64,000 nucleotides of DNA from Rubricoccus marinus (lineage in GTDB: Bacteria > Bacteroidota > Rhodothermia > Rhodothermales > Rubricoccaceae): the NCBI RefSeq assembly GCF_002257665.1, contig NZ_MQWB01000001.1, forward strand, positions 3,359,119-3,423,118. Reading direction: 5' to 3'. Every line of letters starts with the position of its first letter. The stretch's first letter is position 1. Positions 1 through 64,000 of this stretch are shown piece by piece. Below the pieces are notes generated by a model, which was not told where the DNA came from, searched no databases, and saw only the letters and a list, made by a program, of their open reading frames with translations. The position numbers were made by a program, and so were the translations under genes.

Positions 1-43
1 GCGCCCGGAGCGCTTTCCCCTCGCCTCTGGCGACCCTAAACCC

Positions 44-1783
44 ATGACCTTCTCCCACGACATCGTCATCGTCGGCGCCGGAGGCGCCGGACTGATGGCC
101 GCGCTCTACGCCGCCGAAGGCGGCGCCGACGTCGCCGTCGTTTCCAAGCTCCACCCGCTCCGCTCGCACACGGGCGCCGCGCAGGGCGGCATCGGCGCCG
201 CGCTGGGCAACGAGGAGGAGGACAACTGGCTCTGGCACGCCTTCGACACCACGAAGGGCTCGGACTATCTGGGCGACCAGGACGCCATCGAGCAGATGTG
301 CCAGGACGCGCCGCGCACCATCATCGAGTTGGAGCACTACGGCGTGCCGTTTAGCCGCACCAAGGCAGGCAAGATCGCGCAGCGCCGTTTTGGCGGGCAC
401 ACGCGCAACTTCGGTGAGGCCCCCGTCCGCCGCGCGTGCTACGCGGCCGACCGCACCGGCCACATGATCCTGCACACGCTCTACGAGCAGTGCGTCAAGA
501 AAAACGTCAACTTCTACGACGAGTACCAGGTGCTCGATCTCATCCGCGACGGCGACGGTCCCGTGGCAGGCTGCGTGGCCTATGAGATCCTGACCGGCGA
601 GGTCCACACCTTCCACGCCAAGATCACCTGCTTCGCGACGGGCGGCTACGGCCGCGCGTTCAAGACGACGAGCAACGCCCACGCCGGAACCGGCGACGGC
701 TTCGCGATCGCGCTCCGCGCAGGCCTCCCGCTGGAGGACATGGAGTTCATCCAGTTCCACCCCACGGGCCTCTACCGCCTCGGCATCCTCATCACCGAGG
801 GCGCCAGAGGCGAGGGCGGCATCCTCCGCAACTCGGAGGGGGAGCGGTTCATGGAGCGCTACGCGCCGACGGTCAAGGACCTCGCGCCGCGTGACATGGT
901 GAGCCAGTGCATTTACAAGGAGATCCGCGAGGGCCGCGGCGTCAACGGCCGCGACCACGTCGTGCTCGACATGACGCACGTTGGCAAAGAAGTCCTGGAG
1001 CACAAGCTGCCCGAGATCAGCACCTTTAGCCGCGTCTACCTGGGCATCGACCCCGTTAAGCAGCCCATTCCGGTGGCGCCGACGTGCCACTACGCGATGG
1101 GCGGCATCCCGACCAACGTGGACGGGCAGGTCATGGCCTCTGGCGACCGCTCCGACGTTGTGGAGGGGATGTACGCCTGCGGCGAGTGCGCGTGCGTGAG
1201 CGTCCACGGCGCCAACCGTCTGGGCACCAACTCCCTGCTCGACCTCGTCGTCTTCGGACGACGCACGGGCATGGCGATGGCGAAGGCCATCAAGGAAGGC
1301 CAGGGCCACAACGCCATGACCGATGCGCCAGAGGCCCGCACGCGCGAGATGCTCGACGGCATCCTCTCGCGCACGAACGGCGAGCGCGCGGTGTCCATCC
1401 GCACGGACCTGCAGGAGACCATGATGAAGAACGTCTCGGTCTACCGCACCGACGAGACGCTCGGCGAGGCGCTGGACGACCTCCAGACGCTCCGCGAGCG
1501 CGCCGCGACGGTCACCTGCGACGACAAGGGCAAGCGGTTCAACACCGACCTCATGGACGCCGTCGAGATCCAGTTCATGGTGGACTACGCCGAGGCCATC
1601 ACGGTCAGCGCCCGCAACCGGACCGAGAGCCGTGGCGCTCACCTCCGCGAGGACTACTCGGACCGCAACGACGACCAGTGGCTCAAGCACACCATGTTCT
1701 GGAGCGACCAGAAGGGCGGCACCGAGCTCGGCTACAAGGACGTCATCATCACCCAGTTCCAGCCCAAGGAGCGGAAGTACTAG
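44..1783 (+). CDS. sdhA: Succinate dehydrogenase flavoprotein subunit
   Basis: Catalytic subunit of complex II; it oxidises succinate to fumarate and passes electrons through covalent FAD to SdhB. The 579-residue protein has the Rossmann dinucleotide motif GAGGAG at residues 11-16, the FAD-linking histidine at H42 in [10 protein letters not shown], a HYAMGG active-site segment with H349, and the C-terminal [20 protein letters not shown] block. Its size and motifs match the E. coli/mitochondrial type rather than the longer epsilonproteobacterial fumarate-reductase type. The ATG is the first in frame and leaves only 43 bases before it, so any sdhC/sdhD would lie upstream, outside the window. 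sdhB follows after 82 bases. Confidence 0.97.
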
Positions 1784-1792
1784 CCCAGGGAA

Positions 1793-1860
1793 TGGGGACT
1801 GGCGACTGGGGACTGGCAGAACACGCCCCCCGGTCCCCAACCCCTAGTCCCTAGTCCCCC
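1793..1860. repeat. Inverted 7-bp repeat array in the sdhA-sdhB spacer
   Basis: Three 7-base units of the type TGGGGAC/TGGCGAC at 1793-1816 face about four complementary units (GGTCCCC, AACCCCT, AGTCCCT, AGTCCCC) at 1830-1860. The arms can pair into an imperfect long hairpin just before the sdhB start. It is unrelated to the dispersed octamer. It could tune the sdhA/sdhB transcript ratio or be a remnant of a repeat element. Confidence 0.8.
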
Positions 1861-1865
1861 ACACA

Positions 1866-2657: not shown

Positions 2658-2682
2658 CCCCTGGCGTCTGAGACAGGTTTAG

Positions 2683-2718: not shown

Positions 2719-2719
2719 G

Positions 2720-5708: not shown

Positions 5709-7721
5709 CTAGCGCCTCGCGCGGACGGCCTCGCTCGGCGCGCCCTCGTTGCCGGACGTGTCCACGGCGCGGACGCGGAACCACGGCCCAAAGTCCGTCG
5801 GCACGCGCAGCGTCGTTTGGGTCAGAGGCTCGCCCACGGCCTGGAACACGCCGGTCGGGATGCTGGAGGATTCCACGACGTAGTGCGCGAGGTCTTCGGC
5901 CGGCACGGCGGGCCAGGTGAGCACCGTCACGTCGCGGTCCAGCCGCGCGCGGAGGTTGTAGACCGGGCGCGGCGGGTCGGGGTCGGGCCGCGCGAACGCC
6001 AGAGGCTCGGAGCGCGGGCCTTCGTTCGCGAGCGTGTCCACGGCGGCGACGGCGTACGTGTACCGCACCGCGGTGAGCGCCGTCGTGTCACGGAAGCTCA
6101 GCGCCACGTCGGACACCTCCGCCAGAGGCTCTGAATCACGGTAGACGATGTAGCGGCCCACGTCGCGCGAGGCCGAGGCCTGCCAGCGGAGAACGGTCTG
6201 GCGCGAGGCGTCGTCCACGAGTGCGGCGAGGTCCGTCGGCGGAGCGGGTGGCGTGCGGTCCGGGAGTTGGAGCACCACCGCGGCAGTATCGGCCGAGAGC
6301 GAGGACGTATCGCGGGCCACGACGGCGTAGCGGTAGAAGGCGCCTTCTTCGAGCGCGCCGGTCTCGCCCGTGTCGAGCCAGGAGGCCTCTGGCGTGGGCT
6401 CCGCGTTGAGCTGCACGTCGGCCTCGCCACCGTTGTAGGGCCCGCCGTCCGCGGCCACGCGGCGGCGCAGCACGAGCGCGCCCTCGTAATCCGCGGCCTG
6501 AGGTGCGGTCCACGCGATGCGCACGCTGCCGTCCGCCAGAGGCTCGGCGCTCAGGTTCGTGACCGCGGACGGCGGCGTCGTGTCTTCCACCGTCGCGGCC
6601 ACGGCGCCGCTCTGGCGGCTCTCGTTGCCCATCTCGTCTACCACCACGACGGCGTAGAAGTACGCGCCCGGCTCGGGCCGGTCGATGTAGACGGTTTCGA
6701 GGACCGCCAGAGGCTCGGCGTTGAGCCGCTCGTACGGGCCGTTGATGCGCTCGGCACGGAGCACCCAGTAGCCCGCCGCGTCGGAGACCACGCTGACCGG
6801 CCACGTCACGTCCACCACGTCGGCCCCGTCCTCGCGCCGCGCGTTCGCGCCGATGCCGTCCAGCGGCGGCGGCGGCTCTGCCGCCAGAGGCTGGTAGCGC
6901 GCCGTCTCGGTCCGGGCCTCTTGCGCCATCGCGTCCACCGCCGCGACCGCCACCGCGGCGGTTTCCTCTGGCGAGGCAAGCGTGATGACGGTGGAGTACG
7001 CCGTCTGGTTGTCCACGCGAAGGATCGCCGGGCCCCCGTCCACCGGCACCATCTCTCCGCCGGCCTCGCGGTAGAGCCGGAAGTGCACCACGCCGTCGTC
7101 CTCTCCCCCGCTCACCAGGGGGTTCGCCGGGTACTCCCAGGCCACGGTCACGCGCCGGCCCACATGATCCAGCGCGAGGGAGTCGGGCGCCAGAGGCCTC
7201 TGGCGCCGGATGGTGACGGTGGCCTCGGCGGCTTCACCATCCGGCCGGAGGTCAGCGTCGACGCGGGTCGCGCGGTACGTCACCGTCGCGCCGTCGGGCG
7301 CGGTCTCGTCGATGACCAGGCGGCCCAAGCCACGCGCTACGTCGGGCGAGAGAAATGCCGCGAGGCGGTTGGAGACGGGCCCGGTGCGGACGCGGAAAAA
7401 CGCCTCGGCGGGCGTCTCGTCGTCCTGAACGAGTGCTTCCAGCGCTTCTACGCCGGCCACGCGCACGAACGCGCTTGGCGAGACCGGCGCCGCCAGAGGC
7501 TCGGCGGTGAGCGTGTCGAGGATCCCGCCGCTCTCACGCGTGACCACCACGCCGCCATCGGGGCGGAGCGGCAGCGTGTGGTAGACGTGCGTCCGGCCCG
7601 CCTCGTCGGTCAGCACGCGGAGGCCTGCGCTGGCGAGGCCGCCCGAGGCGGATTGCGCCGAAGCCTCTGGCGCGAGAAGCACGAGGGCGAAGGCCAGAGA
7701 CAGGAAACGGGAGAGCGTCAT
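5709..7721 (-). CDS. Secreted fibronectin type III repeat protein
   Basis: Protein of 670 residues with a signal peptide (LSLAFALVLLAPEASAQ) and about five FN3-like beta-sandwich repeats. Each repeat has the pattern PP-x-A-x(T/N)L near its start, W in the B/C strand (for example RIAWTAPQAADYEGALVLRR) and a closing Y-x-Y/F-x-V-x-A-x-D. No enzyme domain, membrane anchor or T9SS sorting domain is seen. The gene lies 55 bases after the 4150-aa gene and 30 bases before the TPR gene, so it is probably co-transcribed. It is likely a surface or periplasmic adhesion or assembly partner of the giant protein, whose own C-terminal part also has FN3-like modules. Confidence 0.8.
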   Translation of the reverse strand: MTLSRFLSLAFALVLLAPEASAQSASGGLASAGLRVLTDEAGRTHVYHTLPLRPDGGVVVTRESGGILDTLTAEPLAAPVSPSAFVRVAGVEALEALVQDDETPAEAFFRVRTGPVSNRLAAFLSPDVARGLGRLVIDETAPDGATVTYRATRVDADLRPDGEAAEATVTIRRQRPLAPDSLALDHVGRRVTVAWEYPANPLVSGGEDDGVVHFRLYREAGGEMVPVDGGPAILRVDNQTAYSTVITLASPEETAAVAVAAVDAMAQEARTETARYQPLAAEPPPPLDGIGANARREDGADVVDVTWPVSVVSDAAGYWVLRAERINGPYERLNAEPLAVLETVYIDRPEPGAYFYAVVVVDEMGNESRQSGAVAATVEDTTPPSAVTNLSAEPLADGSVRIAWTAPQAADYEGALVLRRRVAADGGPYNGGEADVQLNAEPTPEASWLDTGETGALEEGAFYRYAVVARDTSSLSADTAAVVLQLPDRTPPAPPTDLAALVDDASRQTVLRWQASASRDVGRYIVYRDSEPLAEVSDVALSFRDTTALTAVRYTYAVAAVDTLANEGPRSEPLAFARPDPDPPRPVYNLRARLDRDVTVLTWPAVPAEDLAHYVVESSSIPTGVFQAVGEPLTQTTLRVPTDFGPWFRVRAVDTSGNEGAPSEAVRARR

Positions 7722-7776
7722 CGGGTGGGAGTGGATCGGTCGTCATTCTATACACCGAGAAAGCCGGCGCGGCGCG

Positions 7777-10700
7777 TCACCGGGCCGCGCGGCGCTGCTC
7801 CTCGGCGGCGACGGCGGCCTTGAGGTCGGGGTCGCTCAGGCGAGGCAGGCCCAGGTTTTCGCGGCAGGACCGGACGGCGTCGGCGGGGTCGAGCTCCAGC
7901 GAATTGTCCAAGCACCGCGTCAGGGCGGCGCTGGCGCCTCCGCCGCGGCGGCGCTCTTCTTCCTCCTGGATCATGCGGCGGAGTCCGTCCGCGTCCGGCC
8001 TGGGCATCCCTGCCCGCTCTACGCACTGCTGAACGGCCTCGCGGGCGCTCACGCCAGAGGCCTCAGCGTCGATCACGCACGCGCCGTACGCGTCCAGCAG
8101 GGCCTCTGGCGGTTGGTACGCCACCCACGCCGTGCGCGAGGACGTGCGGCCGACCCCGTTGCGAGCCTCAATGGTGATCGCGATGTCGGAGCCGGGAGCG
8201 GGCAGCCGTGCGGCCTCTGTCGCGGTCAGTCCAGCCGAGGCCTGTCCGTTCGGCGCCAGAGGCACCTCGATAACGGTCGTGGCGCCCACGAGCGAGCGGC
8301 CTCCAAAGCGCGGCACGCGCACCTTGACGGTTGCAGACACGACGCCGGTTTCCGGGTCCTGGGGCGGCGTCGCGCGGACCTGGGCGGTGATGCGGCCCGC
8401 GCGGTCTCTCTCGAACGAGACCGAGGCCTCACTCACGACGGGCGCCGTCGGGTCGTGGACGACGAGCGACGTGGTGGCGCGGCTCGCGACGCCCTGGCCG
8501 TTGATGGCGCGGACGCTGACCCACTGCTCGCCATCGCGGGCGTACCGCCATGTGAGGTGCTGCGCGGCCGGGCGCAGGGCGACGTCCTCCGGAACGGTCC
8601 AGTCCACACGGAGCGAGTCCCGCGGCCACGCGCGGAGGTCGTCCAAGCCCGGGGCGCTCCCGACGGCCACCTGGTAGCCCAGGATGCCGCTCTCGTTGTC
8701 CCGCGAAACGCGCGAGAGGGTTAGAACGGGCCCGCCGAGAGCCGGCCACACGCGGACGGTCGGCGTCGTGGGCCGCGTGGGGTCCGCGCGGCGGATGGGC
8801 TCGGTGACGACGGGCGCGCTCAGGCCACCCGCCTGGTTCTGCGCCCGCGCGATAATGCGGAACGAGCCCGTAAAGGGGAACGGGAAGGCCGCCGTCCGCG
8901 AGTTGAAGCGGCTCTGCTGGTTCCAACCCCACCCCTGGTTCGTGGAGTCGAACCGGGCGACGCCAGAGGCCGCGACCCACCCCAGGTCGTAGTGGCTGAT
9001 CCCGCTTTCCGGATCGCTCCCGTCCCACGTCACGTCAACGGTTTCCGCGTCGATGTCGCTCGTGTCGAACTCGATGCGCTGCGCGTCCCACTCTGCGCGG
9101 GCGCGGACCGCCGGGCGCTGCACCGCCGGCCCGGCGGGCGGGATCACAACCGGGGCCTCTGGCGCCACGCTCAGCGTCACCTCGGGCGGCGTCGCGTCGT
9201 GCGTGATCCCCTCGTAGCGGGTGTAGACCGAAGACACGGCGCCTGCGCCGTTGGTCGCGCGGACGGAGAGGTAGACCGGCGTGGAGCCGAGGTTGAGGCC
9301 GTACAAGGTTCCCGCGATGGCGTCGCCCGCGCCCCAGCCGCCCCAGCCCGTCGCCTGCGTGCTGGTGCTGCGGTCGCCCTGGAAAACCTCCCAGTTCCGC
9401 ACGTCTGTTCCGCCTCGTGTGGTGCCCAGCGCCACCTCCCATTGCGCGATGCCGCTCTCGGGATCGCGGGAGGACAGCACGAGGTCCAGGCGTGAGGAAT
9501 CCGGCGCCCACGTCGTGCCTGCGCGGCGCGTGTTGGGTAGGACGGCCGTCGGGACCGCTGGCGGCGTCGCGTCCGTGCCGTCCACCGATCCGCCTTGCCC
9601 CTGGGTAGACGTGCCGCCCTCCGCCAGAGGCACGGTTGCCTGCACGTAGCGGGTGGCCGTCACGCCGCCGGCGCTTCTGGCGCGGACGTAGAGCGTGGTG
9701 CGGGCGGCGGTCTGCGTGCGCGAGCGGCGCAGCATGGGGAACTCCTGGATCGCGATGTTCGCGTCGGGGAACCAGCCGTCTCCCGGAGACGCGGTGCCTG
9801 AGGTGAGGTACGGCACATCATCGTAGACCGACGCCAACGACGGGCCGTTGACGCGGAAGGCGTAGCTCAATTCCGGCACGCCAACCGGGTGCCCCACGCC
9901 CCAGATCACGCTGGCCATGCGCAGGCCGGCGTCGTCGGTATCGCCTTCCAGGCGGAGGTAGGCGATGTCCGGCGGCGCGAGCGCGTCCACCACGTCCGCA
10001 CGAGCGTTGCGCACGCCAGAGGCCGCGGGTAGGCCGGCGTCTGTCCGCCACGCCTCGTACTGCTCAATCATGCCGTATGTGGACACCAGCATCCCGGCCT
10101 TGAGGCCGTACATCTCGTCGATGGTGGACGTAAACGTGGCGTGCGCCGTTGTCAGCGCTGGCCGCTGCGCGTCGTACGCGGTCACGAGGCGTTGCACGGC
10201 CGACTCCGACGCGGTGACGACCTCGGCCAGCCCGCGCTTGGGCATCTCCAGCCAGAACTGGTCGGCGGCCTGGTTGAACGTGGCGCGGACGCTGTTGCGG
10301 AGCGTCGTGTTGTTCGGACTCTGGCGCAGATTGTTGACGCTCGCGATGAAGTCGTTGGCGCGCGAGGTGCCCTCGCTCACGTTGCCGTTGAACTTCCAGA
10401 TCGCGCGGAGCCTCTCCGCACCGGCCTCTCCAATTTCCTGGGCTTCGGTCGCAGAGAGTCCGTTGTTCATCCAGGCGTCCCTCCAGTGCGCGGCGTTGCG
10501 GACGGCTGTCCGCATCGCGCCGCCAGAGGCCAGCGGGAGTGAGGGCAGGAGCGCCTCGCGCGTGGAGGCCCACTCGCGGAGGTCCCACAGGCGCTGCACG
10601 GCGTAGGCGTAGTACCCGTCCAGGTCCAGCGATGCGTTCACAAAGCCGTAGCCGACGGCGTTGACCGCGGTGCCGGTCGTCTCCACGGCGCTGATGTCGG

Positions 10701-13700
10701 GGAGGCCGGCGCCCCAGTTGACCGCGCTCGCGCCGTCCAGCACGAGGTCCACGAGCTTGGCGCTCGCTGCCGCCGCTCCCAAAGCGTCGCGGTACGCCTG
10801 GTCGAGAGCGGCGAGGTCCGCGTCGAAGCCGTCGAGCGCGTCCGCGCCTGCGTCGTACGCGGCCACGTCGTAGGTGAAGCCGGGGCTTTGGAGCACCTGC
10901 CCGCCCGCGCCAACAACGGCAGGGCGGATCGCGGAGACGGGGTTCGGGACGTTGAAGGCCGCCGGGTCGCCAGAGGTCGTCGCGTCTCGGAGTTGGGTGG
11001 CGAGGGAGCCCAGCACGGTCCGGGCGGCCGCCAAGCGTTGCGCCACCTGATCGGCCTCGGCGCTCACAGCCTGGATCTTCTGCGCGACGGCGTCGGCGTC
11101 GGCCTGGGAGGCGCGCACGGCGGGCTGAGACTCCGAGTGCGCGTTGCCCGCAAACGGCGTGGACGCAGAGCGCTGGCCGTAGTAGCCGGACTGCTGGTCG
11201 GCGGTCGAGCCGCGCATCACGTTGGTATAGAGCCAGCCCTCATACGTGCCCGGGTCCGAGAACGCGGCGGTGCCGAACAGTGCGCGCTCGTCGGCGATCA
11301 CCGCGTCCAGGACCGGGCCTCTGGCGGCGGAGGCCGGGACATCCCACGGTCCCTTGTTGGCGAGGAGCATGTGCGTGCCCGCGAGGCGGATATCCGAGGC
11401 GGACACGCGGTAGTTGGCGGGGTTCGCCAGCTCGGCCGCGAGGGCCGCCTGCGCGGCTGCGAGCGCGTCCTTGGCTGCGGCCATCTCGCTCTGGGCCTCT
11501 TGCGCCTTGGTCTGCGCGCCAGAGGCGTCGGCGCGAGCCTGCTGGATGGCGGCGTCCAGGTCGGCGTTACGACCGGTGCCCCAGTCCACATCGCCGCGGG
11601 AGTCGCCCTTGACCCACCCCGCGATGGTGCCATCGAAGACGAAGGCGACGGTGACTGTGGCGCTGCCCGCGAGGTAGACCTCGTAGAGCGCGTCGCTCCG
11701 TTTCAGGAAAAGACCCTTCGCGTCGGCGCGGAGCGCGGCGAGGCCGCCGAGCACGTCGAAGCCGATGTAGAGCCCGGCGTAGGCGCCGAACGGGTTGGTG
11801 CCGTTCGGCAGGTTCCAGACAAGGAGGTCCATGCCTGCTTCTGCCGAGACGATGGCGAGGTCGCCGCTGACCTCGACGGTCAGGTCCAGCAGCATCCCGT
11901 CCGGGCCGGCCATGAAGTCGCCGTCGGCTTCGAGGAAGGAGAGCACGTCCGCCTCCAGGTAGCCGTCGATGCCCCAGACAGCGGGGCCGCTGCCCTGCTT
12001 GAGCGCGAAGAAGTCCAGCCCGGCCTCGGCGTCCAGCGCGGGGCCGAACTCGGCGTAGAAAGCCACGCCGCCCTCGACGCCAGAGGCGCCCGATCCATAG
12101 AGGACCGTGAGGTACATGTCGGCTGCGAGGAGGTTGGTGCCGGGGTTGCTCTGCCCGTACATCGTCGTGTTCACGTCTAGCTTGGTGAACTGGTCGGTGA
12201 CGGTGAGGAGCACGTGCCCCTTCAGCATCGCGGTGCCCATCGAGGGCTCTTTGATGACCGAGGCGCCCGCGTAGAGGAATGCCGCGAACTTCAAATCGCT
12301 GACCTCTGGCGTGGGCCCGACGAGCCGGAACGGGCGCCCGTTGGCGGTGGCGCCGGCAAGCGCGGTCTCGACGAGCCTGAAGTCGTCGATCTCAGGCCGG
12401 TAGAAGAAGCCGCCGCCGATGCCGTCCAACTCGATGATGACGGGGATGATGGGGATCGGGACCGTCGCGGCGGCGAAGATGCCGAAGCGGAGTTCGTCGT
12501 TGAGCGTCGAGATTTTGCCTGCGGCGCCGAAGCCCGTCTGACCGAAGGTGCCGCCACCGGCGACCTCGAAGAGGAAGCCCTCGTTCGGGACCTGGCGGTA
12601 GCGCATGGACGCCTTGAGGCTCGCGGCGTCGCTCATCGCCATCTCCACGTCGGTCAGCGCGATCTCGAAGGCGCCGTTGGTCTCCTCGTAGAACAGCACC
12701 TCGGCGATGCCGCCCACGAAGGCGTCCGTAAACGAGATCCGCAGCGCGGGGTTGGCGGCGCCGTCCCCGAAGCGGAGGTACTGCCGCACGGCCACGTCCA
12801 CCATCTCGGTCTCCGCGGAGCCTCTGGCGCCAGAGGCCCGGCGCTCCATCTGCAGCGTCTCGTTCTCGGCGTAGGTGAACTCGCCGACGGTGAGCGAGAA
12901 GATCTCCGAGAGCGTGAACGTGGCGCCGCCGGCGAAACGGCCGATGTTCTCGACGCCTTCGGTGGAGACGATGAAGTCCTCGAAGCCCGCCGAGCCCTCC
13001 ACGGCGTCCAGCGCGAAGCCGGCGCGGCCTCCGAGCGTGAGGCGGAACGGGAGGTTGCCCCCATTCGGCCGCTGCACGTTGGTCTCGATCTGGAGAGCCG
13101 TAAGGGCAAAGCGGAAGAAGTCGTACTCGAACTCCAGCGGGTTGCTCGTGGACACGCTGGACGACGACACGCGCCACGCGGTCTCGCCAGAGGCCGTGAG
13201 CCGCACGCCGTAGTCGGTCAGAATGTCGGCGGCCTGGCCGAAGTAGATGTGCTTGGTGGGGTCGCTCCGGTCGTTCTCGACGTAGAGGACGCCTGTGGCC
13301 AGCAGCGCGGACTGGGCGGGCTGCGCGATGTTGAGGTCGAGCGCGGCGGCGGTGAGCTTGAGCGTGCCGAAGTCGCCTGGGATGGCGAACTCCGTGTTGG
13401 GGTTGTTCGCGAAGTCGAACGTAGGGCCGGTAATCGTCGGGCGGCCGGTGCGGTCGATGCGGGCGGTCATGGACGCGCTGCTCGCGACGGGCGCGGGGAG
13501 CGTCGCCGTCGCGGCCAGCTTGAGCGCGAGGCCGCTGGCGACGTTCTGCCCGGCGACGATGCTGACCTCGTCCACGACGAAGGCGTCCGGGATGACGGCG
13601 ATGTCGCGGAACAGGACCGCCTCGCCAGAGGCTAGCGACACGTCTCCGTCGGAGCGGACGCGGAGGCCGTCGACCGTGAGCGTCTTGTCGAGGAGGACGG

Positions 13701-20229: not shown

Positions 20230-20232
20230 GGG

Positions 20233-33866: not shown

Positions 33867-33884
33867 GCCTCTGGCGCCAGAGGC
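33867..33884. repeat. Octamer palindrome at a convergent gene end
   Basis: Perfect 18-bp palindrome GCCTCTGGCGCCAGAGGC, 19 bases after the CsbD-like stop and upstream of the converging Rof-like stop. No T-tract follows. Confidence 0.9.
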
Positions 33885-40475: not shown

Positions 40476-40492
40476 CCTCTGGCGCCAGAGGC
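40475..40492. repeat. Octamer palindrome at a convergent gene end
   Basis: Perfect GCCTCTGGCGCCAGAGGC beginning on the last base of the beta-lactamase stop, facing the proline dehydrogenase stop at 40533. Two further single octamer-like copies fill the 57-base gap. Confidence 0.9.
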
Positions 40493-44187: not shown

Positions 44188-44205
44188 CGCCAGAGGCCTC
44201 TGGCG
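44188..44205. repeat. Tail-to-tail octamer palindrome after the kinase gene
   Basis: Perfect CGCCAGAGGCCTCTGGCG four bases after the kinase stop and 33 bases before the next gene on the same strand. Confidence 0.9.
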
Positions 44206-44238: not shown

Positions 44239-45327
44239 ATGACCACCCTCGCCATCGTCGGCGCTGGGGCTGCGGGCCTTGCGGCCGCTCACGCCCTGCG
44301 CGATTCCGACCTCGCCGTCACCGTTTTCGAGAAGAGCCGCGGCGTCAGCGGCCGCGCCGCCACGCGCTGGCGCGACGCGACCGATGCCTCTGGCGCCCCG
44401 TTCCGGTGGCGCTATGACCACGGCGCGCAGTACGCTTCGCCAGAGGCCGGCTCGCGCGTCCACACGCTGCTCACCGAAACGCTCGACGCCAGCGGCCTGA
44501 CCGACCTCAGCGGGACCGTCTGGCCGTTCGACGACGACGGCACGCTCCGGCCCGACCGCGCCCGCCAGGACCCCGGCCCGCGCCTCACCTACGAGGACGG
44601 TATCTCCTCGCTCGGTCGCCGCTTGCTGGACGCCGCACCAGGGGTGACGCTGCGCGGCAACACCCGCGTCGGCGCGCTCCACGTCGAGGGCGGCCTCTGG
44701 CGCGTGCACGCCGATAACGGCGCCGACCTGGGCGCGTTCGACGCCGTGTTGCTTACGCCGCCGGCGCCGCAGGCGGTCGAAATCCTCGGCGCGAGCACGA
44801 TGGCCGACGGCTTGCGCCAGAGGCTCGTGGGCGCGCTGGGCGAGGCCGAGTACCGGAGCCAGTTCACGGCTGTCCTCGCGTTCCTGGAGCCCGTCGCACG
44901 CCCGGAGCCGTACGCGCTCGTCAACGCCGCCGAGCACGGGGAAGCGGGCGGCGGGCACGCCGTGGCGTGGCTGGCCGTCGAGAGCGACAAGCCGGGCCGC
45001 GCGCCAGAGGGCGGGACGCTGCTCCTCGCGCAGATGAGCCCGGCGTGGACCCAGGCGCACTACGACGACGCGAAAGACCTCGTGATCGCCGCGGCCACGC
45101 GCGAGATCGAATCGCTGATGGACGCCTCGCTCCCCGCGCCCGACTGGGCCGATACGCAGCGCTGGAAGTACGCGCTCCCCAACGAGGGCGCCGACGCGGC
45201 TACGCTGGAGACCGGCGAGGACGAAGGCCTGTTTTTCGCCGGTGACGCCATCGCAGGCAAAGGCCGCGTGCACCTCGCGCTGGAGTCCGGGATCGCGGCC
45301 GCCGACCGCATCCGCGAGCGCCTCTAG
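44239..45327 (+). CDS. Renalase-like FAD-dependent amine oxidase
   Basis: A 362-residue flavoprotein. The N-terminal Rossmann motif is IVGAGAAGLAAAHALR, followed by VFEKSRGVSGRAATRW, the segment characteristic of renalase-like NAD(P)/FAD oxidoreductases, and DHGAQY. The C-terminal FAD motif is GLFFAGDAIAGKGRVHLALESG, with a following IAAAD helix. Related enzymes oxidise isomeric NAD(P)H; the bacterial substrate here is unproven. Contains octamer-encoded LRQRL, ASG and GLWR. Converges on the small membrane gene at 45355. Confidence 0.85.
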   Translation: MTTLAIVGAGAAGLAAAHALRDSDLAVTVFEKSRGVSGRAATRWRDATDASGAPFRWRYDHGAQYASPEAGSRVHTLLTETLDASGLTDLSGTVWPFDDDGTLRPDRARQDPGPRLTYEDGISSLGRRLLDAAPGVTLRGNTRVGALHVEGGLWRVHADNGADLGAFDAVLLTPPAPQAVEILGASTMADGLRQRLVGALGEAEYRSQFTAVLAFLEPVARPEPYALVNAAEHGEAGGGHAVAWLAVESDKPGRAPEGGTLLLAQMSPAWTQAHYDDAKDLVIAAATREIESLMDASLPAPDWADTQRWKYALPNEGADAATLETGEDEGLFFAGDAIAGKGRVHLALESGIAAADRIRERL

Positions 45328-45344
45328 CCTCTGGCGCCAGAGGC
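45327..45344. repeat. Octamer palindrome at a convergent gene end
   Basis: Perfect GCCTCTGGCGCCAGAGGC starting on the last base of the oxidase stop and ending 10 bases before the converging stop at 45355. Confidence 0.9.
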
Positions 45345-46368: not shown

Positions 46369-46406
46369 GCGTCCGGCGCCCTGAGCGTCCGGCGGAGATC
46401 GCCGGG

Positions 46407-46424
46407 CCTCTGGCGCCAGAGGCA
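46407..46424. repeat. Octamer palindrome after pdxH
   Basis: Perfect GCCTCTGGCGCCAGAGGC, 38 bases after the pdxH stop. A 13-base direct repeat (gCCCTGAGCGTCCG, near 46363 and 46379) lies just before it. Confidence 0.85.
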
Positions 46425-49224: not shown

Positions 49225-51894
49225 CTACCGCCTCTTTTTACGCGTGCCGCCGCTCTGCTGGATCAGCTTGGCGACGAGCGCCGTCCAGCCCGTCTGGTGG
49301 CTCGCGCCCAGCCCGGCGCCGGTGTCGCCGTTGAAGTACTCGTAGAAGAGCACGCGGTCCTCTCCCTGAAGCATGTCCACGCCGCCGTGGACGGGGCGCT
49401 GGCCGCTGGCGTCCTGCAGGAACAGCGCGGTGAGGCGCCGCGAGAGGTCGCCGGCTACGTCCCAGAGGTTCTGTGTCTCGCCAGAGGCCGTCGGCATCTC
49501 CACCTGCAGGGCGTCGCCGTAGTAGTAGTCGTACTTCTGCAACGACTCGATCATGAGGTAGTTGAGCGGAAACCAGATCGGGCCGCGCCAATTCGAGTTG
49601 CCGCCGAACAGGCCGGAGGTGGACTCGGCGGGCTCGTAGGCCACGGTGTGCGTCTCCCCGTTCGCGCTAAAGCTGTACGGGTTGGCCTCGTGCTCCTTGG
49701 AGAGGCTGCGCAGTCCGAACTCGCTCAGGAACTGGTCCGAGTCCAGCAGGCGCGCCAGGATGCGGCGCAGGCGCGTCTCGTCCACGATGGAGAGCAGGCA
49801 CCGGTCGCCGCGGCCGTGCTCGCGCAGGAACGTGAGGTTCTCCATCAGCTCCGGGCGGTTCTCGATAAACCAGCGCATCCGCCGCGCGAACCGCGGCAGC
49901 GCCTCGAACACGTCCGGCTCCAGCGTCTCGATCGCGAAGAGCGGGATGAGCCCCACGAACGAGCGGATCTTGAGCGGCGTCTGCCGCCCGTCCGGCGTCT
50001 CGATCGCGTCGTAGTAGAAGCCGTCGTCCTCGTCCCAGAGGCCGGGGCCGCCCTCGTCGTTGATGGCCTTGGCGATGTAGACGAAGTGCTCGAAGAACTT
50101 GGTGGCCACGTCCTCATAGGCCGGGCGCGTGCGGGCGAGTTCGATCGAGATGGCGAGCATGTTGAGGCAGTACATCGCCATCCACGCCGTGCCGTCGGCC
50201 TGGTCCAGGTGGCCGCCGGTGGGCAGCGGCGCGCTCCGATCGAACACGCCGATGTTGTCCAGCCCGAGAAAGCCGCCCTGGAAGACGTTGTTGCCCTCGT
50301 CGTCCTTCTGGTTGACCCACCACGTAAAGTTGAGCAGCAGCTTGTGGAAGGCGCTCGCGAGGAAGTCCGTGTCCGGCCCGCCGTTGTGGTCGCGGTCGAT
50401 CTGGTAGACGCGCCACACGGCCCAGGCGTGGACGGGCGGGTTCACGTCCCCGAAGTCCCACTCGTAGGCCGGAAGCTGCCCGTTGGGGTGCTGGTACCAC
50501 TCGCGCATGAGCAGCGTGAGCTGCCGCTTGGACCACTCCGGGTCCAAGAGCGCCATCGGGATCATGTGAAAGGCGAGGTCCCAGGCGGCGTACCACGGGT
50601 ACTCCCACTTGTCCGGCATGGAGAGCACGTCCAGGTTGTAGAGGTGCGTCCAGTCGTGGTTGCGGCCGTGCCGGCGGGCCTCTGGCGGGGGCGGGAACGC
50701 GGGGTCCCCGTCGAGCCAGAGCTTGGGGCTGTAGTGGTAGAACTGCTTGCTCCAGAGCAGCCCGGCAAACGCCTGGCGCTGCACGTTGCGCTCGTCGTCG
50801 CTCAGGCCGGGCGCCTGGAGCGCGTCGTAAAAGGCGTCGGCCTCGTGGATGCGGGTGCGGAACGTGGCGTCGAAGTCCGCGAACGGGTCGGCGTGGTCCT
50901 CTGGCGCGTAGCGCACCTCGACGACGAGCGACTCGCCGGGCGCGACCGTCGCGTGGATGTGGGCGGCCGCTTTGGTGCCGCGCCGCTCCGGGTTGACCGC
51001 GTCCGCCTCGCCGTCCACGATCGCACGGTGGAACGCGTCCTTGACGTAGGGCGAGAGGCTGGGCGAGCCGAACAGCCGCTCCCGGTTCGTCTCGTTCTCG
51101 GTAAACATCAGCGCCGCCGACTCGGCGCCAGAGGCCCGGACGGACCACCACCGGTCGCCGAGGTGGCGGTGCTCGCCGTGCACGCGCAAAAGACCTCTGG
51201 CGCCAGAGGCATCGCGGAGGGTCGGCTTGGGGCGGTCGTCGTAGCCCCAGGACCACGTGTTGCGGTACCAGACGTGCGGCAGGAGGTGGAGGGGAGCCGC
51301 CTGGGGTGCGCGGTTGGTGGCGGTGATGCGGCACAGGATGTCGTTCTCCCCCGCTTTCGCGTACTCGATGCCTACATCGAAGTAGCGGCCCTCGGCGAGC
51401 GCGTCTCCGATGGCGTCCGTCAGTTCGTACTCCGGGTCGTGGTAGCCTCGCGCCAGGTTTTCCCGGACCAGCTGCTCATACGGGTAGGCCACCTGCGGGT
51501 AGGCGTAGTGCATCCGCATGTAGCTGTGCGTCGGCGTGCCGTCTACGTAGAAGTAGTGCTCCTTGACGTCCTCGCCGTGGTTGCCCTGCGGCCCGCTGAC
51601 GCCGAAGAACCGCTCCTTGAGGATGGCGTCCTGCTCGTTCCACATCGCGACGCCGAGGCAGACGTTCTGCATCCGGTTGCAGAAGCCCGCGATGGCGTCC
51701 TCGTTCCAGCGGTAGGCGCGGCTGTGCGCGTGCTCGTGCGGGAAGTAGTCCCACGCGTCGCCAGAGGCGCTGTAGTCCTCGCGGACGGTCCCCCACGCAC
51801 GGTCGGCGACGTACGGCCCCCAGTTTTTCCAGTCGGCCTCGCGGGCTTCGGAGGTGGCGAGCCGCTGGTGTTCGGCGGTATCGGGACGGGGCAT
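49225..51894 (-). CDS. GH63-like (MGH1-type) glucosidase
   Basis: An 889-residue protein without a signal peptide, so probably cytosolic. An N-terminal beta-sandwich ([20 protein letters not shown], then [20 protein letters not shown]) is followed by an (alpha/alpha)6 catalytic barrel with [20 protein letters not shown]-type residues (here [16 protein letters not shown]), [20 protein letters not shown] and a C-terminal [20 protein letters not shown]. These are typical of bacterial GH63/mannosyl-glycerate-hydrolase-like enzymes, which cleave alpha-glucosides such as glucosylglycerate. The exact substrate and catalytic acids cannot be fixed from sequence alone. An N-terminal region (1-40) is polar. 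Confidence 0.85.
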
Positions 51895-52027: not shown

Positions 52028-52408
52028 ATGATGCGACCCCGGCGGTGGCTCCTGTTCAGCGCGCTCGCGCTTCTCCCATCCGCGGCGCACGCGTCGGACT
52101 TCTCCGGCGTCGTGACCATCGTGTTCGGCATCCCGGGTTTGCTCGTCGCCACCGTCGCCGCCTCCGCGTTCCTGTTGGTTGAGCCGAGCCGCGTGCAGAA
52201 GGCTTCGGCGGCCGCTCTCTTCCTGCCGGTCCTCGCCGCCGCGGCGTGGGTCTTCGTAGGGGACACCGCCCGGATGATGCGGCGTGGCCTGCCCGACGAC
52301 CTCCTGATCAGCGCGGGGTACGTGCTGCTGCTCCTCGTTCTGGCCGCCCTCGTCGCGCGGATCCTCCTCCGGCCTCTGGCGCCAGAGGCTCGGGGCCGAA
52401 CGGAGTAG
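52028..52408 (+). CDS. Small integral membrane protein (126 aa)
   Basis: Starts [20 protein letters not shown], a signal-like or first helix, then hydrophobic segments [21 protein letters not shown], a middle helix around [18 protein letters not shown] and a last helix [20 protein letters not shown]. Probably four helices in the inner membrane. No family recognised. The C-terminal residues [11 protein letters not shown] are almost wholly encoded by an octamer palindrome (52372-52389), so the reading frame has taken up the repeat at its end. Divergent from the glucosidase gene. Confidence 0.7.
52372..52389. repeat. Octamer palindrome inside the 3' end of a gene
   Basis: Perfect GCCTCTGGCGCCAGAGGC just before the stop of the small membrane protein gene, encoding its final Pro-Leu-Ala-Pro-Glu-Ala. 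Confidence 0.9.
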
Positions 52409-52584: not shown

Positions 52585-53055
52585 ATGCCTGCGCTCCCCG
52601 CCGTCCTCGCTGTTTTGCTCCTCGCCTGCGCCTCTGGCGCGCCGGCCTCTCCTGATCCCGTGCCCTCGCCGGACCTCGCGCCAGAGGCCGTGGTCAAGAT
52701 CGTCGTGGGGGCGCTGCAACAGAACGACGAGCCGGCGGACGACGCGGGCATCGCGACGGCTTTCCGCTTCGCCTCGCCGGGCAACCAGGCCGCGACGGGG
52801 CCTTTGGCGCGGTTTACGGCCATGATCCGCGGCGGCTACAGCGACATGCTGGACTTCGAGCGCGCCACCTACGGCCGCATGGTGTTCCAGGGCGACGAGG
52901 CGGCGCAGCGCGTCACGCTCGTCCAGGCCAACGGGCGCCGCAGCACGTACGTGTTCGCGCTCTCGAAGCAGGTCGGCGGGGAGCGCGACGGCTGCTGGAT
53001 GACGGACGCCGTAGTGCCGGTCGCGCCACAGGACGACGGATTGATCCGGACGTAG
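52585..53055 (+). CDS. DUF4864-like lipoprotein
   Basis: A 156-residue protein with a short leader ending LLLAC (lipobox). The body matches the DUF4864 pattern: VVKIVVGALQQND, then AGIATAFRFASPGNQAATG, FTAMIRGGYSDMLDFERATY, GDEAAQRVTLVQANGRRSTY and DGCWMTDAVVPV. The family has a cystatin/NTF2-like small fold of unknown role. Octamers encode the linker residues ASGAPAS and LAPEAV. Converges on the SDR gene. Confidence 0.8.
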   Translation: MPALPAVLAVLLLACASGAPASPDPVPSPDLAPEAVVKIVVGALQQNDEPADDAGIATAFRFASPGNQAATGPLARFTAMIRGGYSDMLDFERATYGRMVFQGDEAAQRVTLVQANGRRSTYVFALSKQVGGERDGCWMTDAVVPVAPQDDGLIRT

Positions 53056-53072
53056 CCTCTGGCGCCAGAGGC
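53055..53072. repeat. Octamer palindrome at a convergent gene end
   Basis: Perfect GCCTCTGGCGCCAGAGGC starting on the last base of the DUF4864 stop. A second, 16-base imperfect copy lies at about 53136-53152 next to the SDR stop. Confidence 0.9.
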
Positions 53073-54115: not shown

Positions 54116-54133
54116 GCCTCTGGCGCCAGAGGC
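54116..54133. repeat. Octamer palindrome in a divergent spacer
   Basis: Perfect GCCTCTGGCGCCAGAGGC between the divergent SDR gene and the small membrane gene; one of the few palindromes in a 5' rather than a 3' spacer. Confidence 0.9.
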
Positions 54134-54554: not shown

Positions 54555-54572
54555 GCCTCTGGCGCCAGAGGC
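54555..54572. repeat. Octamer palindrome at a convergent gene end
   Basis: Perfect GCCTCTGGCGCCAGAGGC between the small membrane gene and the ftsZ terminator. Confidence 0.9.
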
Positions 54573-54748: not shown

Positions 54749-54766
54749 CGCCAGAGGCCTCTGGCG
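54749..54766. repeat. Tail-to-tail octamer palindrome after ftsZ
   Basis: Perfect CGCCAGAGGCCTCTGGCG, nine bases past the ftsZ stop. Confidence 0.9.
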
Positions 54767-57499: not shown

Positions 57500-58476
57500 G
57501 AGTTTGGGGGTGTGGGGGTAGGGGATGCGACGGGTGTGGAGCCTGAGCCAGGTCCCTCGGCGGCAGGCTCCAAAGCCTCCGAGGGAGTGGTGCCCGCATC
57601 GCCAGAGCCTCTGGCGGGAGCGGGAGTTGGGGTGTCGCCAGAGGCCTCTGGCGAGGTGCCGCCCGCGGAGCGCGTCGGCGGCAGGATCTCCTGCGCGACG
57701 ACTTGCCCGGCAAAGCGGAGGTCGACGAGCCGCAGCGGCACGTCGGGGCGGGTGAGGACGGCCTGCTCCCAGAAGGCGCCGAGGCGCGTGAGCGCGTCGG
57801 CGTGGCCGGTGCGGCCGAGCCGGACAGGGATCGTCCCCCGGCCGGCGACGGGCTCGGTGTAGAGCGTCGCGCCCGATTCGGACCAGACGACTTCGCTGAT
57901 GAGCGCGTCCACGCCATCGTCCGCGCTGGCGAGCGCGCCGAGGAGTTCGCGGATGCCCGCGTTGCGGATGGGCTGCGTCGGGTGGTAGGCGGGAAGGCGG
58001 CCGCGCAGCAGCGGCACGTCCTCGGTCTCAGCGCCAGAGGCGGGCACGGGCATCGCAAAGCCCACTGCGTCGAGGTAGTGGTGCGGGCGGCCGTCGGCGT
58101 CGAGCACGAGCGCGACGGGGGTGCGCTCCTCCACGGCGATGCGGAGCGAGCCGGTGGGCAGGCGGCGCAGGCGCGCCTCGCGTACCCACGGGTGGCGGCG
58201 CACGCGGTCGGCGACGAGCGCGAGGTCGATGCCGTAGAGCGCGACCGGGACGGCCTCATCCGGCGCGACGCCCGCAAGCGTGGACACGTCCTCTGGCGCC
58301 GCGCGGTGCGTGCCGACCACCCGGACCTCTTCCAGCGGGAGCGTGCGGTGCCACACCCACGCGGCCACGAGGCCGACGCAGAGCGCGACCAGGCCGAGGG
58401 CGCGGCCGATCTTGCGCAGCTTGCGGCGGCGGTCCTGCTGCTGTGCGGTGAGCGTTTTCGAGGTGCGCTTAGCCAT
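57496..58476 (-). CDS. ftsQ: Cell division protein FtsQ/DivIB
   Basis: Bitopic divisome protein of 326 residues. A basic cytosolic head (KRTSKTLTAQQQDRRRKLRK) precedes one transmembrane helix (ALGLVALCVGLVAAWVW), a POTRA domain (EEVRVVGTHRAAPEDVSTLA) and the beta domain. The final ~60 residues are an unusual Pro/Thr/Ser/Gly/Ala-rich tail that contains two octamer palindromes (57600-57616 and 57636-57653), encoding SPEASGD and APARGSG. Normal family members end shortly after the beta domain, so the tail looks like a repeat-driven extension. Overlaps murC by 8 bases. Confidence 0.93.
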   Translation of the reverse strand: MAKRTSKTLTAQQQDRRRKLRKIGRALGLVALCVGLVAAWVWHRTLPLEEVRVVGTHRAAPEDVSTLAGVAPDEAVPVALYGIDLALVADRVRRHPWVREARLRRLPTGSLRIAVEERTPVALVLDADGRPHHYLDAVGFAMPVPASGAETEDVPLLRGRLPAYHPTQPIRNAGIRELLGALASADDGVDALISEVVWSESGATLYTEPVAGRGTIPVRLGRTGHADALTRLGAFWEQAVLTRPDVPLRLVDLRFAGQVVAQEILPPTRSAGGTSPEASGDTPTPAPARGSGDAGTTPSEALEPAAEGPGSGSTPVASPTPTPPNS

Positions 58477-60022
58477 CGGTCTCGGCGCCGGAGGCGGGAT
58501 CGTGGCTGGGGTCGTTCGGGGCCTCTGGCGTCTCGCCAGAGGATGCGGCTGCGCCAGAGGCCTCTGGCGACGACGGCAGCGCGTCGAGAAAGGCCTGGCC
58601 GTAGCGCCACACGTCGCCCGCGCCCATCGTGACCACGAGGTCGCCGGGGCGGGTGAGCATCTTGAGCGAGAGCGGGAGGTCGTTCTTGTCCTGCACGTAG
58701 TGCACGTCGCGGTGGCCGTACTGGCGCGCCAAGCCGGCGATCAACTCGCCGGTGATGCCCTCGATGGGCTCCTCGCGGGCGGGGAACACGTCGGTCAGGA
58801 CCAGCACGTCGGCGTCGTAGAACGCCCGCGCGAACTCCTCCTGGAGGTCCCGGGTGCGGCTGTACAGGTGCGGCTGGAAGACGGCCACGACGCGGCGCTC
58901 GGGCCAGCCCTTCGCGGCGGCCTCTAGCGTGGCCTCCACTTCGGTGGGGTGGTGCGCGTAGTCGTCCACGACGAGCACGCTGCTCTCGCCAGAGGCCTCG
59001 GCGTCGCGGGTGTAGCCCTCGCCCTTGATCTGGAAACGGCGCTCGACGCCCTCGTAGGCCGCGAGCCCTTCGGCGATGGTGGAGAACGGCACGTCCAGTT
59101 CCAGGCCGACACCGATGCACGCGAGCGCGTTGCGCACGTTGTGCAGCCCGGGCGCGTGGAGCGTGATGCGGCCCATGCGCTCGGAGTTGAACATGACGTC
59201 GAACTGCGTCGCGGCGCCGATCTGCTCGATGTTCTCGGCGCGGAGCGTGGCCTGCCGGCTCGTGCCGTAGGTGATCACGCGGCGGTGGATGTCGCCCACG
59301 ACCGAGCGCACGTTCTCGTCGTCCAGGCACAGAATGGCGGCGCCGAAGAACGGGACGCGGTTGGCGTACTCCACGAACGTCTCCTTGATGTCCGCGAGGT
59401 CCTTGTACGTGTCGAGGTGGTCTTCCTCGATGTTCGTAATGACCGCGATGACGGGCGTGAGCCGGAGGAACGTGCGGTCGTACTCGTCGGCCTCGACGAC
59501 GATCACGTCGCCGTCGCCGCTGACGGCGTTGGCGCCAAAGGAGGCCACCTTTCCGCCGACGATGATCGTCGGCTCCAAGCCTGCGTGCTTGGCCATCATG
59601 CCGACCATCGTCGTCGTGGTCGTCTTGCCGTGCGTGCCCGCGATGCCGACGCCCTGGCGCATCCGCATGAGCTCGCCGAGCATCTCGGCGCGCTTGATGC
59701 GCGGGATGAGGCGCCGCTTCGCCTCCACCGTTTCCGGGTTGAGGTCCGCCTTGACCGCTGACGAGTACACGACGACGTCCACGTCCTGCACGTTTTCCGC
59801 CTGGTGCCCCTCGTAGATCGTCGCGCCGAGCGTTTCGAGCCGCGCCGTCGTGTCGCTCTTCTTGAGGTCCGAGCCCGTGATCTCAAAGCCTCTGGCGATG
59901 AGCACCTCGGCGATGGAGGACATGCCGATCCCGCCGATCCCCACCATGTGGATGCGGCGCACGCGTCCCATCTGGTCGCGGGAGCGGCCTCTGGCGTCGG
60001 AAGCGGGGCGGGAGTCGGTCAC
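58469..60022 (-). CDS. murC: UDP-N-acetylmuramate-L-alanine ligase
   Basis: ATP-dependent ligase that adds L-alanine to UDP-MurNAc in the cytosol. The 517 residues show the N-terminal GIGGIGMSSIAEVL nucleotide fold, the ATP loop GTHGKTTTTTMVG, EADEYDRTFLRL, and the C-terminal VVDDYAHHPTEVEATLEAA and VFQPHLYSRTRDL typical of MurC. The GTG at 60022 gives 17 extra polar residues; the ATG at 59971 (MGRVRRIHMVGIGG) is an equally good start. The last ~35 residues are a low-complexity Ser/Pro/Glu/Ala tail containing an octamer palindrome (58552-58569). Confidence 0.95.
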   Translation of the reverse strand: MTDSRPASDARGRSRDQMGRVRRIHMVGIGGIGMSSIAEVLIARGFEITGSDLKKSDTTARLETLGATIYEGHQAENVQDVDVVVYSSAVKADLNPETVEAKRRLIPRIKRAEMLGELMRMRQGVGIAGTHGKTTTTTMVGMMAKHAGLEPTIIVGGKVASFGANAVSGDGDVIVVEADEYDRTFLRLTPVIAVITNIEEDHLDTYKDLADIKETFVEYANRVPFFGAAILCLDDENVRSVVGDIHRRVITYGTSRQATLRAENIEQIGAATQFDVMFNSERMGRITLHAPGLHNVRNALACIGVGLELDVPFSTIAEGLAAYEGVERRFQIKGEGYTRDAEASGESSVLVVDDYAHHPTEVEATLEAAAKGWPERRVVAVFQPHLYSRTRDLQEEFARAFYDADVLVLTDVFPAREEPIEGITGELIAGLARQYGHRDVHYVQDKNDLPLSLKMLTRPGDLVVTMGAGDVWRYGQAFLDALPSSPEASGAAASSGETPEAPNDPSHDPASGAETDG

Positions 60023-62395: not shown

Positions 62396-62472
62396 TGTGA
62401 ACTGCGCGATGCGTGAGGGAGCGATGGGCGAGACCCGCGCATCACGGCTCTCGCATCATGAGAGGTCGCCTG

Positions 62473-64000
62473 TTAGAGCGTCTGGACGGCCTGCTTGAAG
62501 GCGTCGCCGCGGTGCTCGTAGTTGTCGAACTGGTCGAAGGAGGCGCAGGCGGGGCTGAGCAGGACGGTGTCGCCCTCCTCGGCCATGAGGCTCGCGAACT
62601 GCACGGCCTCCTCCATGCTGGCGGCGTGGGCCGTGTGCGGCGCCAGAGGCCCGAGCTCCTCCAGGATCTTGTCGGCGCCCTCGCCGATCGCGACGATGCC
62701 TTTCACCTTGTCCGAGACGAGGCGGCGGAGCGGGCCGTAGTCGTTGCCTTTGTCGCGCCCTCCGGCGATGAGGACCACGCTGGGGCTGCCGTCGTCGTGC
62801 GCGGCGAAGGACTCCAGCGCGTACCAGACGGCGTTGACGTTGGTGGCCTTGGAGTCGTTGATGTAGGTGGCGCCGCGCACGGAGCGGACGCGCTCCAGGC
62901 GGTGCGGCACCCCCTCGAAGCTTGTCAGGCTCTGGCGCACCACGTCGCTCCGGATCTCCATCGCGCGGGCGACGATGGCGCTCGCGAGGGAGTTGTAGAG
63001 GTTGTGGCGCCCGCGGAGGGCGAGGTCGGAGGTGGGCATGAGCTCTTCGTAGCGAAGAAGGAAGTCGGCCGGGGTCAGGGTGCCCCGGTCTTCGATGGGT
63101 GCGCCAGAGGCCTCTGGCGGGGCTGCCGCAGGGGCGAGGCTTGCCTCGCCCTCGCTCGGAGCGCTGTCGGCGGGCGAAGCAAGCCTCGCCTCTACAGGGT
63201 GCGAGTCGGCCTCTGGCGACCCCGGATCGGCGTCCGGAGTAGGCGCTGGCGCCTCGGCAGGCGGCGTAACCGGGATGGCGCGGCGGGGCGCGTTGCCGCG
63301 GCTGGGCAGCGAGAGCGTGATCACGTCGCCCGAGATATGCGCGGCGCCGTCGCCGCGGTGGCGCACGAAGCCGCCGAGCGCCAGCGGCTCGTCGATGGAG
63401 AACGGGACGGGCGTGAGCCCGGCGCCAGAGGCCCAGCGCTCCACGTGGTCGGCCACGGCCTCGTCGTCCTTGTTGTAGATCAGCCAGTCGCCGGGCTGCT
63501 GCGCGGCCTCGAAGAGGCGGTACTTCGCCGCGGCGTACTTCTCCATCGAGCCGTCGTAGCGGTCGAGGTGGTCCGGCGTGACGTTGAGGAGCACGGCGAC
63601 GTGCGGGCGGAACGTGGCGACGTGGTCCAACTGGAAGCTGGAGACCTCGAGGATCACCGCCGTGTCCTCGTCGATCTCATCCACGTAGTCTGAGAACGCC
63701 GTCCCGATGTTGCCCGCCACGACGTGCTTGCGCCCGGCAGTTTCGAAGATGTGCGCGATGAGGCTCGTCGTGGTGGTCTTGCCGTTGCTGCCGGTCACGG
63801 CCACGATCGGCCCGCGGCAGAACCAGCTCGCCACCTCGATCTCGCTCGCGACGGGGATGCCGCGGGCCTGGGCTGTCTGCACCGGCCCGATCGTGCTGGG
63901 CACGCCGGGGCTCACGACGATCAACTCGGCCTCCAGCGCGCGGTCGGTGTGGCCGCCCATCTCGAACGCGACGCCAGAGGCTTCGAGGTCTGCCTGGGCA
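62473..64000 (-). CDS. murD: UDP-N-acetylmuramoylalanine-D-glutamate ligase, partial
   Basis: C-terminal ~508 residues of MurD; the N-terminus lies beyond the right edge (the frame is open to 64000, reading AQADLEASGVAFE into MGGHTD). It shows the ATP loop VTGSNGKTTTTSLI, EVSSFQLDH, NVTPDHLDRY, then after an insertion RGRHNLYNSLASAI, PHRLERV, YINDSKATNVNAV and LSPACASFDQFDNYEHRGD. Between the central strands and LRGRHN it carries an unusual ~65-residue Ala/Pro/Glu/Ser-rich insertion (about 63085-63290) built from octamers and a separate inverted repeat. First gene of the cluster within the window. Confidence 0.95.
   Translation of the reverse strand, partial: AQADLEASGVAFEMGGHTDRALEAELIVVSPGVPSTIGPVQTAQARGIPVASEIEVASWFCRGPIVAVTGSNGKTTTTSLIAHIFETAGRKHVVAGNIGTAFSDYVDEIDEDTAVILEVSSFQLDHVATFRPHVAVLLNVTPDHLDRYDGSMEKYAAAKYRLFEAAQQPGDWLIYNKDDEAVADHVERWASGAGLTPVPFSIDEPLALGGFVRHRGDGAAHISGDVITLSLPSRGNAPRRAIPVTPPAEAPAPTPDADPGSPEADSHPVEARLASPADSAPSEGEASLAPAAAPPEASGAPIEDRGTLTPADFLLRYEELMPTSDLALRGRHNLYNSLASAIVARAMEIRSDVVRQSLTSFEGVPHRLERVRSVRGATYINDSKATNVNAVWYALESFAAHDDGSPSVVLIAGGRDKGNDYGPLRRLVSDKVKGIVAIGEGADKILEELGPLAPHTAHAASMEEAVQFASLMAEEGDTVLLSPACASFDQFDNYEHRGDAFKQAVQTL
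63102..63119. repeat. Octamer palindrome inside the MurD insertion
   Basis: Perfect CGCCAGAGGCCTCTGGCG within the low-complexity insertion of murD, encoding part of PPEASGAP on the minus strand. Confidence 0.9.
63134..63189. repeat. Inverted repeat inside murD
   Basis: GCGAGGCTTGC (63134-63144) is the exact reverse complement of GCAAGCCTCGC (63179-63189), giving an 11-bp stem with a 34-base loop in frame within murD. It is unrelated to the octamer and may mark a small palindromic element that inserted and is translated, as known for RPE elements in Rickettsia (analogy only). Confidence 0.75.

Follow-up and report, generated by a model that had tools for sequence, protein, structure and literature searches.

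Rubricoccus marinus carries a densely iterated 10-nt word, a candidate DNA uptake sequence with different dialects in related genomes

Results

A 10-nt word recurs throughout the window

The window analysed here is a 64,000-nt stretch of the Rubricoccus marinus genome (positions 1–64000). The octamer CTCTGGCG/CGCCAGAG occurs in it 280 times, 125 times in forward and 155 times in reverse orientation, beginning with a forward-strand copy at positions 25–32; an example on the opposite strand lies at 802–809. A sequence-only reading of this DNA had claimed that the octamer saturates the window, and the excess is larger than that reading stated. In 100 dinucleotide shuffles of the window the octamer appeared 7.27 times on average and at most 17 times, and a third-order Markov model gave an expectation of 25.4, itself an overestimate because the octamer contributes to its own tetramers. 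The earlier hand count of 44 copies in the first 10 kb was correct in total, with a strand split of 20 and 24 on recounting in place of the 19 and 25 given. That reading was also right about the excess of the octamer but took the core for the whole: the full unit is the 10-mer GCCTCTGGCG/CGCCAGAGGC, which contains CTCTGGCG as its core and is present in 246 copies against 4.75 expected (52-fold). The excess stands after Markov correction.

The edges of the 10-mer are sharp, with flanking information near background and a slight preference for G before and C after the word. Within the window, 196 of the 246 copies lie in called genes, where all six frames are used, and the other 50 fall in 4.8 kb of intergenic DNA. 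The largest gap without a word spans 1.2 kb (49479–50678), inside an 889-aa glycoside-hydrolase-like gene, and 92% of random 1-kb fragments contain at least one word. Overlapping inverted pairs form 18-bp palindromes, of which the window holds 16. The form CGCCAGAGGCCTCTGGCG lies at 2720–2737, 7188–7205, 44188–44205, 54749–54766, 57636–57653, 58552–58569 and 63102–63119; the form GCCTCTGGCGCCAGAGGC lies at 12820–12837, 33867–33884, 40475–40492, 45327–45344, 46406–46423, 52372–52389, 53055–53072, 54116–54133 and 54555–54572.

The word covers both strands of the chromosome and is scarce on plasmid-like scaffolds

The assembly of R. marinus SG-29T comprises 15 scaffolds with 4,430,441 bp and 69.0% GC (PMC5609423). 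Across these 4,430,441 bases in 15 contigs, GCCTCTGGCG occurs 14,176 times (7049 forward, 7127 reverse), or once per 312 bp (3.2/kb), so that the excess extends far beyond the window; the same word read backwards, used as a control, occurs 61 times genome-wide. These genome-wide figures are pattern counts, whereas the distribution statistics were derived from ~484 kb of chromosome together with scaffold samples. No strand polarity was found along the chromosome (χ2 = 9.2, df = 22, p = 0.99), which upholds the earlier argument that near-equal orientations speak against Chi- or KOPS-like signals. Equal use of both strands, the lack of local polarity and the use of six frames indicate that the word marks double-stranded DNA and is neither a codon signal nor a polar one. 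Codon usage was rejected as its cause, as every frame is used and the density is higher between genes.

Two plasmid-like scaffolds, C14 (90 kb) and C15 (65 kb), carry 0.4 and 0.2 words per kb, compared with ~3.5/kb on the chromosome, an 8–17-fold scarcity. By eye, C14 contains T4SS-like and ParA-like genes. Sampled pieces of C10 and C11 showed intermediate densities of 0.45–1.75/kb. Perfect copies outnumber one-mismatch copies by 1747 to 800. A depletion of near-matches by conversion was unsupported: several hundred near-matches occur in 404 kb, and they are already rare in relatives.

Words are enriched at gene ends and pair in inverted orientation

In the ~484 kb of chromosome, the density of GCCTCTGGCG is 2.76/kb in genes, rising to 6.1/kb in divergent, 9.0/kb in codirectional and 12.2/kb in convergent gaps, with a peak 0–10 nt beyond stop codons; gene boundaries were set by a simple purpose-made GC-frame gene caller, which makes the coding/intergenic division approximate. 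About two thirds of the copies in 404 kb are nonetheless genic (926 of 1440). Neighbouring words less than 60 nt apart are inverted in 297 cases and direct in 53, and the same 404 kb contain 127 of the 18-bp palindromes. In-gene words read mainly as Ala-Ser-Gly, Pro-Glu, Pro-Leu-Ala and Ala-Arg-Gly. The word visibly shapes proteins, with half of TCT and two thirds of AGA codons lying inside words (51% and 67% in the sampled genes).

Related genomes carry different words

Comparison with related genomes, which the sequence-only reading had proposed, set R. marinus apart. In an FtsA search, the nearest named relatives fall in Rubrivirga/Rubricoccaceae. Among 59 relatives, GCCTCTGGCG occurs in 2–99 copies, near the controls, with the maximum of 99 in a congener (G001); other genomes of the phylum sample hold at most 25. 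Some relatives carry GCTGGCGG or CCGAGGCGG instead. The word GCTGGCGG is present 8020 times in the congener (control, 1599) and 7454 times in G007, an uncultured Rubricoccaceae-family bacterium of another genus whose genome includes the L050 contig (control, 2023), compared with 1111 times in R. marinus (control, 1125). It was also found in the contig of UWMA-0293, a close relative of R. marinus. In the two genomes rich in GCTGGCGG its density is 3.5–3.8/kb between genes and 1.9–2.0/kb within them, the opposite of G004 and G006 (0.1–0.3/kb intergenic, below the 0.5–0.6/kb in genes), so that GCTGGCGG is not codon-driven in the former pair. It shows no strand polarity (p = 0.53 in G007 and 0.44 in the congener). 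A second conserved element, N6-TCGGCG, follows GCTGGCGG downstream in both genomes and recalls the extended uptake signal sequence (USS) of Pasteurellaceae.

A weaker word, CCGAGGCGG, occurs in G004, G006 and G008, mainly in intergenic DNA (1.4–2.7/kb versus 0.5–0.7/kb in genes). The motif CTGGCG is common to GCCTCTGGCG and GCTGGCGG and absent from CCGAGGCGG. No comparable word was found in two genomes of lower GC (G002 and G005), on both of which the gene caller fails. A ComEC tree, built from proteins extracted by tblastn, groups R. marinus with its congener (100/100) and G007 with G004, G006 and G008 (100/100). With the two GCTGGCGG genomes in separate groups, this tree indicates that the words changed at least twice. 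By this sequence comparison, the words behave as dialects with at least two switches.

Copies arise in place by substitution

Codons under words matched those of orthologues in 50–63% of cases, compared with 64–81% elsewhere, and gaps were commoner under words; the alignments place GCCTCTGGCG at tolerant, permissive protein sites. At the same place in aligned orthologues the sequence is mostly several substitutions away from GCCTCTGGCG and mostly ungapped, and the alignments indicate that copies were made in place, by substitution. A mobile repeat of the REP or MITE type was rejected, because conservation stops at the word edge and orthologous sites are mostly ungapped and differ by substitutions. 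Inheritance from the word of a relative was likewise rejected: the sites coincide in only 2 of 31 comparisons with the congener, 3 of 57 with G007 and 0 of 12 with UWMA-0293. At the two T positions of GCCTCTGGCG, G or C is what relatives mostly have; both transversions and transitions are therefore required, and no single type of lesion, such as deamination, suffices.

Competence genes are present in R. marinus and in its relatives

R. marinus has genes for ComEC, for a ComEA-like protein and for a retractable type IV pilus, competence functions that the earlier reading had singled out for a check, and for DprA as well. One locus (L010) encodes PilC and PilB, another (L179) a PilQ-like secretin and pilin-like proteins, and a third (L178) ComEC, the gene of which itself contains 15 words. 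A PilT-family ATPase (TIGR01420) scored 317.7 bits against a cut-off of 319.1, and an HHH_3 ComEA-like protein and DprA were also identified. The pilus genes form one unbroken cluster in G004, G006 and G007; no PilB/PilT match was obtained in the congener, whose assembly is 91% complete and in 300 pieces. Since competence genes are equally present in relatives with weak words or none, they do not discriminate between word-bearing and other genomes.

A search of R. marinus for a ComP homologue or a word-binding pilin found neither, but returned two candidate minor pilins without a family match. Their models are weak (pLDDT 69 and 59), and a Foldseek fold search with the better of these weak models gave no match. 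Divergence of the candidate pilin does not track the dialects: its versions in G007 and G008 are 59% alike, although the words of these genomes differ.

Discussion

We propose that GCCTCTGGCG is probably a species-specific DNA uptake sequence of R. marinus, spread by biased transformation. The closest known parallels are the DNA uptake sequences (DUS) of Neisseriaceae, likewise non-palindromic 10-nt words present on both strands in thousands of copies, with dialects among relatives (PMC3630211, PMC2397512). Neisserial dialects share a CTG core, form inverted pairs at terminators, occupy permissive sites and are missing from recently acquired genes (PMC3630211, PMC2397512). The present words resemble them: a CTG-containing core is found in both strong dialects, GCCTCTGGCG and GCTGGCGG; inverted pairs occur at gene ends, some of them overlapping as dyads, an arrangement also reported for Simonsiella muelleri (PMC3630211, PMC2397512); placement is permissive; and words are scarce in acquired DNA, here the plasmid-like scaffolds. 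From this shared constellation we infer an independent uptake-sequence system that would be maintained by biased transformation. Permissive placement and plasmid depletion are equally expected of any slow drive.

The differences from DUS are also clear. The word is unrelated, the host belongs to another phylum (Rhodothermota/Bacteroidota), and ~14,200 copies compare with at most ~6,000. Perfect copies exceed one-mismatch copies in R. marinus, whereas the neisserial ratio is 1:1.15 (PMC3630211). Neisserial dialects are read by the minor pilin ComP, the homologue of which we did not find in R. marinus. The earlier claim that the word is denser than its known parallels holds modestly for uptake words, at 3.2/kb versus ~2.5/kb in the densest neisserial dialect (PMC3630211). 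The USS of Pasteurellaceae (AAGTGCGGT, with a second version ACAAGCGGTC) is similarly short, asymmetric and strongly over-represented, and its form varies from genus to genus (PMC1939737), but both word and host are unrelated, and GCCTCTGGCG has no flanking element.

For an uptake sequence, a plausible course of events would be as follows. A retractable type IV pilus, probably acting through a minor pilin as receptor, would favour double-stranded DNA bearing the word, which ComEA and ComEC would import and DprA and recombination would install. Alleles gaining a word by chance would be taken up more often and copied into other cells. Through this molecular drive, words would build up wherever protein or intergenic sequence permits, until nearly every fragment has one. 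A shift in receptor preference would let the old word decay and a new one spread, giving rise to the family dialects GCCTCTGGCG, GCTGGCGG and perhaps CCGAGGCGG. The inverted pairs at gene ends were probably co-opted as terminators. Of the three readings that had been offered on the sequence alone, the uptake sequence and the drive-like repeat are thus favoured jointly; the third, a methylation or mismatch-repair footprint of the HIP1 methylase type, fits poorly with the missing palindromic core, the near absence of the three methylase families searched and the mixture of mutational types.

The main rival is a HIP1-like or recombination- or repair-driven word, the target of an intracellular DNA-binding, methylating or repair protein. 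Such a word would have no part in uptake and would spread inside the cell through biased gene conversion or selection. Cyanobacterial HIP1 (GCGATCGC) is an extremely frequent genome-wide word that is swapped for others in some relatives (PMC4390886), GCCTCTGGCG holds the quasi-palindrome GCC-TCT-GGC and often lies in true palindromes, and the intermediate densities on C10 and C11 would suit any slow drive. We consider this rival unlikely. HIP words are palindromes linked to core GATC/CGATCG methylases (PMC4390886), whereas GCCTCTGGCG is asymmetric, in its mismatch tolerance as well, and has no palindromic core. Matching methylases are almost absent: of three families searched in R. marinus, PF00145 and PF01555 were absent, and PF02384 was represented only by a fragment on the plasmid-like scaffold C15. 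The changes that create words also span more than one mutational type, which speaks against a methylase footprint. Somewhat less likely still is an alternative drive, unlike a HIP1-like methylase, a Chi-like signal or biased uptake, in which an intracellular protein or conversion process of a kind not known so far would fix near-matches to one 10-mer and shift its preference between sister species.

The word might instead be the binding site of another abundant chromosomal protein, involved in nucleoid structure, segregation or condensin loading, and selected for high density. A chromosome-specific mark of this kind would fit the even spread of the word along the chromosome and its low densities on the plasmid-like scaffolds. 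We nevertheless regard it as improbable: segregation signals are polar or regional, and GCCTCTGGCG is neither; the quick turnover of words between congeners is hard to square with a conserved housekeeping protein. Intrinsic terminators or other RNA hairpins, with the word as a favoured stem, would account for the marked enrichment past stop codons, the enrichment of palindromes in convergent gaps and the mostly intergenic CCGAGGCGG. The coding majority of copies, in every frame and both orientations, excludes terminators as the whole cause, and we judge this explanation very improbable. A Chi-like hotspot of recombination, recognised by an enzyme of the RecBCD/AddAB type, is hardly credible: Chi and KOPS/AIMS are also short, frequent words, and GCTGGCGG is one base from Chi of E. 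coli (GCTGGTGG), but GCCTCTGGCG is unlike Chi, polarity is absent in R. marinus, G007 and the congener, and Chi is not known for inverted pairs, enrichment between genes or a density of 3/kb.

Some bacteria mark their DNA with species-recognition tags that guide uptake towards DNA from their own species. Such uptake words are, to our knowledge, established in just two families, Neisseriaceae and Pasteurellaceae. Our search of the available literature found no report of them in Bacteroidetes or Rhodothermota, and the papers listed by a search for GCCTCTGGCG itself all look unrelated. If GCCTCTGGCG is indeed an uptake sequence, Rhodothermota/Bacteroidota would supply a third case, independent of the other two, and its 3.2 words/kb would exceed the neisserial dialects surveyed in PMC3630211. 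The host is a cultured and apparently harmless type strain from the sea, and its sister species have switched words. The origin of such words, their reader, their selfish or adaptive nature and the isolation of species by dialect change would then become testable.

The iterated word in related genomes

In the congener G001 (loci L029–L036 and L129–L132) and in G007, a member of another genus of the same family (L043–L045 and L133–L137), the flanks of the iterated word GCTGGCGG contain additional conserved positions: C at −6, CC preceding the word and, downstream, spaced by 6 further bases, TCGGCG. These positions surround both genic and intergenic copies, and together with the word they possibly constitute a bipartite recognition site. 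Three further relatives carry a weaker, intergenic word, CCGAGGCGG/CCGCCTCGG (G004 and G006, L037–L042 and L138–L148; G008, L231–L236), which may represent a third dialect or else a terminator stem.

Large reading frames and pilus genes of R. marinus

Within the window, the 4150-aa open frame (7777–20229, − strand) had no Pfam match. The 2977-aa protein (22153–31086, + strand) contains 12 Big_9/cadherin-like domains with a repeat length of 276–282 bp, and part of the R. marinus words in its gene are duplicated along with the repeat.

Scaffold C11 (L180, 10001–30000) carries a second set of genes of the type II secretion/type IV pilus kind, comprising T2SSE, prepilin-peptidase-like and pilin-like genes. 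A transposase-like gene adjoins this set, and word density on this scaffold piece is only 0.45 words/kb; the set is probably a recent acquisition. Within the pilus cluster L179, two proteins, of 550 aa (7737–9389, + strand) and 741 aa (11180–13405, + strand), matched no Pfam or NCBIfam family, the latter showing 48–55% conservation in G004, G006 and G007. Both are possible candidates for a receptor or for PilN/P-like parts.
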